Of a stretch of 64,000 bases of DNA, positions 31,614-50,500 are shown one piece after another. This DNA comes from Solirubrobacteraceae bacterium. GTDB lineage: Bacteria; Actinomycetota; Thermoleophilia; Solirubrobacterales; Solirubrobacteraceae. The stretch is taken from positions 1-64,000 of the forward strand of contig JADGPL010000001.1 in the NCBI GenBank assembly GCA_017882455.1. Reading direction: 5' to 3'. Both the position numbers and the translations under genes were made by a program. Positions within the stretch are counted from its first letter, which is position 1. The number at the start of each line of letters is the position of its first letter. The notes under the pieces were generated by a model. It ran no database searches and was not told the DNA's origin. It saw only the letters and a program-made list of their open reading frames with translations.

Positions 31614-31663
31614 CTCAACATGTTCCTACGTATCCGCACGCCCGGCGAGCGCGCGCGAGGTGA

Positions 31664-32143
31664 TCACCTCGCGCGGTCCAATACGTTGACCTGCCGGATC
31701 ACCCGGCCAGCCTCCAGCTCGGTGCTCTGCACGACCACATAGTCGAGCGCCTCACCGGTGGCGAGCGAGCGATGGCGCAGCCGGGCTCGACGCACGATGC
31801 GACCCGGCGATGCCTCCTCGAGGCTCAGGTTCTCGATCGTGTTCTCGTCGTAGGAGGCGAGGACACCTCGCCAGAAGCCCAACACCGCCGCTCGGCCGTG
31901 AAGCAGGCCGTCTGGGTGCAGAGGCGGCGGTGGGCCGTACTCGACGTCGGGGGCGAACAGCGCAAACACGACGTCGAGATCCGCTCGGTTGAACGCATCA
32001 CGGGCACGGTCGAATGCGGACTGCAGGACTCTCCGCCGCACAGGTCCCGGCAGGCGCCCGACGGCTCGTGCTCCGAGCGCAGCCAACCGCGGCGCTCCCA
32101 ACTCGAGGCGGTCTGCGAATGGTCGCCGGCGACGATCGGGCAC
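31664..32143 (-). CDS. SnoaL/NTF2-like domain protein
   Basis: The protein of about 159 residues begins at a GTG with TAGGAT eight bases upstream. It has a basic N-terminus, and residues 50-155 show the NTF2-like cone fold pattern: AFDRARDAFNRADLDVVFALFAPDVEYGPP, GRAAVLGFWRGVL and VVVQSTELEAGRVIRQV. Such domains bind or convert small hydrophobic molecules, and many are non-catalytic. No neighbour indicates a substrate. Longer in-frame starts would extend across the divergent gene and are unlikely. Confidence 0.75.
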   Translation of the reverse strand: MPDRRRRPFADRLELGAPRLAALGARAVGRLPGPVRRRVLQSAFDRARDAFNRADLDVVFALFAPDVEYGPPPPLHPDGLLHGRAAVLGFWRGVLASYDENTIENLSLEEASPGRIVRRARLRHRSLATGEALDYVVVQSTELEAGRVIRQVNVLDRAR

Positions 32144-46028: not shown

Positions 46029-48629
<2,601 letters not shown>

Positions 48630-48814
48630 TGTGTGATCCCTTCCTACCTAGGACGGTGCCTCAAAAGCTTTGTGGTCCGGATGACGCCTCTGGAGTCAGT
48701 CTACCAATCGACCCCCCTGCTCTATCGGGGTCATCGGCAGCGCGGGGGTGGGCCTTGACCATCGGGTGTCGGGTGTGCCGATCGGCGCATGCAACACGCC
48801 AGGCTGACGGTGTG

Positions 48815-48908
48815 CTGGTCGGCGCATGCGCCGACCAGAGGACCCGCGCATGCGCGGGTCCAAGCAGGGTCGCATGCGACCCTGCCGGCCTCGCCGCATG
48901 CGGCGAGG
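48815..48908. repeat. Array of four perfect palindromes with CGCATGCG centres, 24-bp period
   Basis: Palindromes of 24, 22, 22 and 20 bp occupy 48815-48838, 48840-48861, 48864-48885 and 48889-48908. All share the central CGCATGCG, but the arms differ: CTGGTCGG, GGACCCG, GCAGGGT and CCTCGC, each matched exactly by its own reverse complement on the other side. Centres are at 48826.5, 48850.5, 48874.5 and 48898.5, exactly 24 bp apart. Each unit can form a hairpin in RNA from either strand or a cruciform in DNA. Confidence 0.9.
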
Positions 48909-48928: not shown

Positions 48929-48972
48929 GGGGCGACTCGCGCGCCCACGCGCACACGCGCGCAAGTCGCCCC
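48929..48972. terminator. Long GC-rich stem-loop next to the palindrome array, probable lysS terminator
   Basis: GGGGCGACT pairs with AGTCGCCCC; inside, after one mismatch, GCGCGC pairs with GCGCGC. The loop is about 12 nt and there is no T tract. It lies 31 bp after the lysS stop on the minus strand. Confidence 0.5.
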
Positions 48973-49003: not shown

Positions 49004-50500
49004 TCAGTCGCGCATGGCCGGGAACAGCACGACCTCGCGGATCGAGTCGGCTCCGGTGAGCAGCATCACGAGCCGGTCGATGCCGAGCCCGACGCCGCCG
49101 GAGGGCGGCATTCCCTGCTCGAGCGCTTCCACGAACAGCTCGTCATAGGGCTGTGACTCCTCGGCGCCGAGTGTCTCCAGCCGCTGCTGAGCCACGAACC
49201 GCTCACGCTGGGCATCCGCGTCGATCAGCTCACTGAAGGCGTTGGCTATCTCCATCCCCCCGGCAAACGCCTCCCAGCGCTCGACCAGCCCCTCCTCGGA
49301 GCGATGCTCGCGGGCGAGCGGCGAGAGCTCGACCGGGTAGTCGAACACGAAGGTGGGCTGCTGCAGCGAGGGCTCGACGTGCTTGGAGAGCAGATCGTCT
49401 GCGAGCTGCGGCCAGGCGAGCCCCTCTGTCTGCATCGCGAGGCCGGCCGCGACGATGGCCGCGCGCAGGGACTCGGCGTCGCGGTTGGCCATCACGTCGA
49501 TTCCGGTCGCCTCCTCGATCGAGCCGGCGAAGCTCACCCTTTGCCACGGCGAGGAGAAGTCGAGCTCGCCGGAGTATCCGACCGCCTGCGCGGCCGCTCG
49601 GACCGCCTCTTCCAGGCGTCGGGCCTCCTCCTCGTAGTCAGCGTAGGCCTCATACCACTCGACCATCGTGAACTCCGGGTTGTGCTTGTGGGAGATGCCC
49701 TCGTTGCGAAAGTCCTTGCCGAGCTCATATACGCGCTCGAGCCCTCCGACGATGCAGCGCTTGAGATACAGCTCGGTGGCGATGCGCAGGTACAGGTCCC
49801 GATCGAGGGCGTTGTGGTGGGTGGTGAACGGGCGCGCCAGGGCTCCCCCGTAGAGGGGCTGCAGGACCGGGGTCTCAACCTCGATGAACCCCTGCCCGTC
49901 CAGATATGAGCGCACCGCGGAGATGAGCTTGGCGCGATCGGCGAAGCGCCTGCGCGTGTCCTCGTTGGCGATCAGGTCGAGCTCCCGTCTGCGGTGGCGC
50001 GTCTCCACGTCGCTGAGGCCGTGGTGCTTGTCGGGCGGAGGACGCAGCGCCTTGGCGAGGATCCGGAAGGCGTCCACCCGCAGCGTGAGCTCTCCGTGGC
50101 GGCTGCGCAGCACCGCCCCGTCCACGCCCAGCAGGTCGCCGAGATCGAGCGAGGTGAGCCGCTCGAAGGCCTCCTTGCCGAGCACGTCCACACGCGCGTG
50201 CAGCTGGATCTTGCCGCTGCGATCGACCAGGTCGAGGAAGGCCGCCCGTCCGGCGCCGCGGCGGGCGGCGATGCGCCCGGCGACCCGATGGCGATCCTCG
50301 GTCTCCTCGCCGTCGGCGAGATGGGCGTAGGCGTCGAGGATCGTCGAGATCGGCTCGACGTCGGGATAGGCGTAGGGGAACGCCTCGGGGTCGCTCGCGG
50401 CGAGACGCTGCGCCTTGGCGCGACGCTCGGCGATCAGCTCCGCCAGCCCGTGCCGCGAGGACTCGCCGGCCGGACCGCCCTCCTGCTCGGACCCGCCCAT
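49004..50500 (-). CDS. lysS: Lysyl-tRNA synthetase (class II)
   Basis: The 498-residue protein has the OB-fold anticodon-binding domain (about 70-160) and class II motifs. YELGKDFRNEGISHKHNPEF is motif 2 and GVGLGIDRLVMLLTGADSIREVVLFP is motif 3, with EVETPVLQPLYGGALARPF before them. It charges tRNA-Lys. An N-terminal charged extension of about 15 residues is additional. It lies 12 bp downstream of greA, so the two form an operon. A leaderless or internal promoter is not evident. Confidence 0.96.
   Translation of the reverse strand: MGGSEQEGGPAGESSRHGLAELIAERRAKAQRLAASDPEAFPYAYPDVEPISTILDAYAHLADGEETEDRHRVAGRIAARRGAGRAAFLDLVDRSGKIQLHARVDVLGKEAFERLTSLDLGDLLGVDGAVLRSRHGELTLRVDAFRILAKALRPPPDKHHGLSDVETRHRRRELDLIANEDTRRRFADRAKLISAVRSYLDGQGFIEVETPVLQPLYGGALARPFTTHHNALDRDLYLRIATELYLKRCIVGGLERVYELGKDFRNEGISHKHNPEFTMVEWYEAYADYEEEARRLEEAVRAAAQAVGYSGELDFSSPWQRVSFAGSIEEATGIDVMANRDAESLRAAIVAAGLAMQTEGLAWPQLADDLLSKHVEPSLQQPTFVFDYPVELSPLAREHRSEEGLVERWEAFAGGMEIANAFSELIDADAQRERFVAQQRLETLGAEESQPYDELFVEALEQGMPPSGGVGLGIDRLVMLLTGADSIREVVLFPAMRD

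Follow-up and report, generated by a model that had tools for sequence, protein, structure and literature searches.

Rickettsia palindromic elements (RPE) are single, longer palindromes that share a family consensus. Dispersed bacterial palindromes also include the GTAG- and CGTC-tagged repetitive extragenic palindromes (REP), together with the bacterial interspersed mosaic elements (BIME) (PMC3733652, PMC8266576). Mobile hairpin elements of mitochondria comprise double-hairpin elements and the repetitive hairpin-forming elements of sponges (PMC2800124). Further, hairpins reportedly arise and persist through template switching (PMC8794818), which has also been reported to homogenise the arms of inverted repeats in coding genes (PMC8604942), both papers treating it as a process by which inverted repeats are repaired as well as created; coding palindromes have been described in Nematomorpha (PMC6649704). 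In this work, we analysed an array of four perfect palindromes found between lysS and clpC in a 64,000-nt stretch of DNA, hereafter the window, from a Solirubrobacteraceae bacterium (positions 1 to 64,000 of contig JADGPL010000001.1, assembly GCA_017882455.1). The array is a member of a dispersed family whose arrays consist mostly of three 24-bp perfect palindromes tiled every 24 bp; the nearest described kind is that of the REP/RPE-type repeats, of which the family constitutes a new variant. Among the papers searched, none was relevant to GCATGC palindrome repeats or to Solirubrobacter palindromes, and the terms Solirubrobacter, Thermoleophilia and CATG are all unmentioned in the RepRanger paper.

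The window array comprises perfect palindromes of 24 bp (unit 1, 48815..48838, CTGGTCGGCGCATGCGCCGACCAG), 22 bp (unit 2, 48840..48861), 22 bp (unit 3, 48864..48885) and 20 bp (unit 4, 48889..48908), with no strand assigned, whose centres at 48826.5, 48850.5, 48874.5 and 48898.5 are spaced exactly 24 bp apart. The sizes, coordinates and centres given in a preliminary description of the locus were reproduced, and the arrangement lies beyond chance: the pattern CATGYRN{14,18}YRCATG gave 57 matches genome-wide versus 3 for its reversed control, and GCATGCN{14,30}GCATGC gave 32 versus 2. Only six perfect palindromes of at least 20 bp are present in the window, four of them in this array. In a predicted DNA fold, the array forms four neat hairpins with 4-nt loops (z = -8.7). 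Within 443 kb sampled as stretches chosen around arrays, perfect palindromes of at least 20 bp were centred on GCATGC in 39 cases and on ACATGT in 11, far above any other hexamer.

Further runs of palindromes, for which a search was proposed in the preliminary description, were found both in the window's genome, with approximately 21 arrays in 3.3 Mb (51 contigs), and in its relatives, where arrays are patchily distributed over 29 of the 232 genomes and 4 of the 54 genera of the order Solirubrobacterales. Two species of one genus (G158 and G159, genus g39) carry 23 and 35 array core pairs, above the window's genome, alongside congeners with none. A scan of species genomes recovered the core pattern in many phyla; among the matches listed, it was palindromic only in Solirubrobacterales-type records, which include Solirubrobacteraceae and one metagenome-assembled genome labelled Actinomycetes. 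At 40 loci from outside the order with the same core pattern, pairing amounted to 30% and none was palindromic, and the seven pattern matches in viral contigs included no array of perfect palindromes. Every carrier identified by name is a metagenome-assembled genome and palindromes are hard to assemble, which could raise the suspicion of an assembly artefact; we regard this, along with chance or plain tandem duplication, as practically discounted, since control patterns gave close to zero matches, orthologous arrays recur across many separately deposited assemblies, and neighbouring units within an array differ from each other.

The unit of the family is a 24-bp perfect palindrome with a 10-bp stem and a CATG loop, preceded by R and followed by Y. 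From 401 units collected, 300 were perfect over 24 bp, representing 233 distinct sequences; in these perfect units position -4 was always C or T, and position -3 always G or A. Units were mostly spaced by 24 bp, otherwise chiefly by 23 or 25, and the spacings of 4-12 bp in this collection stem from simple repeats that do not belong to the family. The centre previously reported as common to the four window palindromes, CGCATGCG, is indeed present in all of them, but the family core is broader and corresponds to YRCATGYR (GCATGC or ACATGT). Similarly, the arms had been described as unrelated, but across the genome they are not wholly so: three unit types recur, namely A (..GGYRCATG), B (..CCGYRCATG) and C (..GCCGCATG), most commonly in the order A-B-C. 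Window units 1 and 2 correspond to types A and B, and the genome also has GCAGGGTCGCATGCGACCCTGC of unit 3 in its C17 and C44 arrays. Altered loops are rare, with single changes in about 7 of roughly 390 units. The invariant core, in register every 24 bp, would suit a multi-site double-stranded DNA platform for a protein reading RCATGY, the palindromic arms being a by-product. Nevertheless, a reader of the core needs no perfect variable arms, and a 24-bp period does not amount to whole helical turns, which places adjacent sites on different faces of the helix; we consider such a platform very improbable, and the narrower version proposed earlier, for a protein reading only GCATGC, is not supported and leaves the same arms unexplained.

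An orientation fit on the array flanks revealed a conserved AACAGC-like end at the A side, the opposite one being marked by a weak GGA. The signal fades after approximately 7 nt; its fit score was 403, and flanks taken 60-120 bp away scored 299-323, which speaks for a discrete element. Miniature inverted-repeat transposable elements are recognised by terminal inverted repeats and target-site duplication; here, the ends are unlike each other and show no inverted repetition. As a probe of recent dispersal, unit similarity was 0.502 within genomes versus 0.497 between genomes.

Arm pairing was assessed in a set of 237 units chosen by their cores only. Stem pairs 2-8 were Watson-Crick in 98.4% of cases versus approximately 35% by chance (28-44% with the partner slid 1-3 positions), and the pair types numbered three or four per stem pair, with all four at nearly every one. 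G·U pairs accounted for 0.12%, though A-T pairs are common, and internal mismatches were rare on both strands; read in sense orientation, they comprised 2 G·U, 2 A·C and 21 others, with no bias towards G·U. Taken together, the stem is constrained to self-complementarity and not to a sequence, and the loop, rarely altered, is constrained in its sequence. The pairing constraint is exerted at the level of DNA, or of both strands, and not of a single RNA: the covariation that characterises conserved RNA structures is present, without the tolerated G·U pairs that accompany it there.

Gene calls based on codon usage placed the 111 arrays in convergent (28), co-directional (50) and divergent (10) gaps, inside predicted genes (14) and at contig edges (9), the background gaps being 34, 180 and 96, respectively. 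Thus, convergent gaps are enriched (odds ratio 3.8, Fisher p = 9e-6) and divergent gaps depleted (0.29, p = 2e-4); copies occur in both orientations, and the median distance from array to stop codon is 13 nt. Among the arrays inside genes, at least one (L162) appears to owe its placement to an antisense call, and L130 to an over-extended one; clear in-frame cases are those in ABC-F and leucyl-tRNA synthetase (LeuRS) genes, the latter (L047, L138, L166) with the array ahead of LMRKAHWAIEKV and coding for AHA-rich peptides. A position directly after stop codons and in convergent gaps, along with strong predicted folding, would be compatible with a tandem-hairpin intrinsic terminator or a 3'-end stabiliser acting from the transcript, and hairpin clusters have been claimed as terminators (PMC8355165). 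However, this RNA-based explanation, put forward in the preliminary description, appears unlikely and is not supported as the main reason for the array: it is at odds with the scarcity of G·U pairs and the mixed mismatches, with paired changes of the transversion type (see below), with arrays inside open frames, with a number of just ~21 arrays in a genome of 3.3 Mb, and with a hairpin of its own that lysS displays beside the array. Nor do the arrays fit an intrinsic terminator, in which a G+C hairpin precedes a T-run: they do lie behind genes, but the sequences read show no T-run at array ends.

Many arrays occupy sites common to several species, which allowed their evolution to be followed. 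In a Uup-like ABC-F gene, an in-frame array is located in the linker in six congeners and in none of approximately 10 others. Between species, 13-33% of the stem pairs at this site changed on both arms, and one-sided changes were near zero outside the decaying array of G014. Divergence between the species compared amounts to 34-45% at four-fold sites of this gene, and stem pairs change at roughly half of that value. A second site, 3' of an acyl-CoA dehydrogenase gene, holds arrays or an array start in seven species and none in others; in the closest pair (G000/G002, with proteins 96% identical), there is no difference in unit C, one paired change in B and five in A. Approximately half of all paired changes are of the transversion type, for which no passage through G·U exists; hence the two arms must change at the same time, or any mismatched intermediate must disappear very quickly. 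Maintenance of pairing within units while the arms change, as suggested earlier, is therefore borne out by paired changes with almost no one-sided ones. The comparison of relatives had been envisaged for the lysS-clpC region, where the array proved absent from the spacer in 15 congeners, indicating insertion or loss at the site; positional conservation was thereby rejected in congeners, and the refuting outcome named in the preliminary description was in part realised. Compensating arms were found instead in orthologous arrays at other loci, which argues against a chance local expansion.

We favour, with about even confidence, the explanation that the window array represents one copy of a REP-like DNA element, dispersed and non-autonomous, whose hairpins are kept perfect at the DNA level, chiefly by arm-templated correction. 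For such an element we infer mobility, correction and a loop-reading factor: copies would spread as DNA via a mobiliser; a mutation in one arm would be transferred to its partner during fold-back of the strand, through template switching or hairpin-directed repair; and the CATG core would be fixed because a spreading or processing factor reads it. Paired, transversion-rich changes at about half the neutral rate fit arm-templated correction since, by reasoning and not from a fitted model, unbiased correction is expected to proceed near the per-site neutral rate and strong selection to give a much lower one. Fold-back copying, already contemplated in the preliminary description, offers the best fit to paired changes that include transversions, with almost no one-sided intermediates and no G·U. 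Selection in place of correction is a less likely alternative, in which a protein or nuclease would read the extruded or single-stranded hairpin (RCATGY loop, any 10-bp stem), by analogy with the integron integrase on folded attC sites, and mismatched stems would be purged. A fixed loop on varying stems, a stem length capped at 24 bp and mismatches rare on both strands would agree with it, but such selection should slow paired change well below neutral and not to half of the four-fold-site divergence, sister species without an array at the same gene reveal no general need for it, and no candidate protein was found. It is also conceivable, though we give it limited credence, that an enzyme, whether cellular or selfish, targets hairpins in single-stranded or cruciform form (CATG loop, any 10-bp stem), both spreading units and rewriting arms; if true, an enzyme acting on CATG-loop hairpins would leave the sequence free and enforce self-complementarity, and the arrays would represent a class of mobile or processed prokaryotic DNA without a known enzyme.

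Several observations weigh against a mobile element maintained by arm-templated correction. No mobiliser was found, neither a clean empty site nor a target duplication was seen (duplications could not be resolved), and the end motif occurs in only part of the arrays, 37 of 113 having AACA at the oriented edge. An invariant CATG loop, a fixed length of 24 bp and tiling are all left unaccounted for by template switching alone, suggesting a further factor that reads the sequence, and strong selection on the hairpin could yield the same paired pattern. Moreover, past ~15-20% flank divergence, the similarity of orthologous units often does not exceed that of random arrays (baseline 0.60-0.63), so some of the paired changes may represent unit replacement from other arrays and not arm correction, and whole units may also be replaced ectopically by such copies; finally, the pairwise comparisons share tree branches and their counts are not independent.

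Regarding the described systems, the arrays resemble REP and BIME in being dispersed short stem-loops (20-40 bp in REP) with short loops, located mostly in co-directional and convergent gaps and sometimes inside genes, and in carrying a conserved unpaired tag at one end (GTAG or CGTC in REP, AACAGC-like here). In contrast, REP families are defined by stem and loop sequences, whereas the array family displays a conserved loop with free arms, its stem sequence not being conserved, and tiled perfect 24-bp units. Canonical GTAG/CGTC REP identity was rejected, as no tag enrichment near array edges (GTAG 16/113 versus 10/108 in controls; CGTC 16/113 versus 39/108) and no Y1 transposase in the window's genome were found; the corresponding family, PF01797 (TnpA_REP/RAYT), is absent from G000 and from array-bearing members of the genus, except G006. 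A 3'-end preference and a defined end without these tags or this transposase led us to call the element REP-like and not to file it as REP. In Rfam, there were three matches, all weak and falling far short of the gathering scores. As with RPE (mentioned in PMC3733652), dispersed palindromes are tolerated in frame within protein genes, but the array family has 8-codon units, free arms and fixed centres coding for AHA or AHV. Mitochondrial hairpin elements are likewise small, hairpin-forming and dispersed in intergenic DNA, but belong to organelle genomes, and the invariant CATG loop and exact 24-bp tiling are not seen for them in the accessible part of the source (PMC2800124). Template-switch inverted repeats (PMC8794818, PMC8604942) and the Nematomorpha palindromes (PMC6649704) share perfect arms and paired multi-base changes, also in coding DNA, but do not form a dispersed family united by a common core, a fixed length and tiling.

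Perfect pairs with fixed centres and free arms suggest that, in some uncultured soil bacteria, DNA hairpins are kept perfect by a process or constraint that has received little study. Hundreds of such palindromes, several at orthologous sites where neighbouring genes serve as clocks, constitute a natural experiment on inverted-repeat perfection, in which absent G·U and paired transversions separate RNA-level from DNA-level causes; they render arm-to-arm templated correction measurable in bacteria, and point to a factor reading or spreading CATG-loop hairpins.

With respect to the genomic neighbourhood, the array was correctly placed in the preliminary description downstream of lysS (49004..50500, minus strand) and upstream of clpC (46029..48629, minus strand), on the same strand; it lies in the 374-bp gap between them, ~93 bp behind the lysS stop codon. 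In another genome (L179) an array directly abuts that stop codon, a difference in position according to which the two were probably gained independently. Two further features of the gap lie outside the array: a strong terminator-like hairpin behind lysS (48929..48972, minus strand, GGGGCGACTTGCGCGC...GCGCGAGTCGCCCC), which from its predicted fold is likely the lysS terminator, and a block upstream of clpC (48697..48742, minus strand, CCGATGACCCCGATAGAGCAGG...TTGGTAGACTG), conserved in several congeners, that looks like a clpC promoter or operator. An unpaired relic half-unit (48773..48792, no strand assigned, GTGTGCCGATCGGCGCATGC) is a direct repeat, 18/20 by eye, of 48810-48829, that is, of the flank, left arm and core of unit 1; half-unit relics also adjoin arrays in L090 and G018, and these relics show that the core was a site of rearrangement in the past. 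At G000:C48:102291-103760 there is another lysyl-tRNA synthetase-like gene, with 47% identity to the window lysS; most congeners have one too. Elsewhere in the window, a lone 24-bp perfect palindrome, CGCGCGAGGTGATCACCTCGCGCG, is located at 31652-31675 and bears no relation to the array family.
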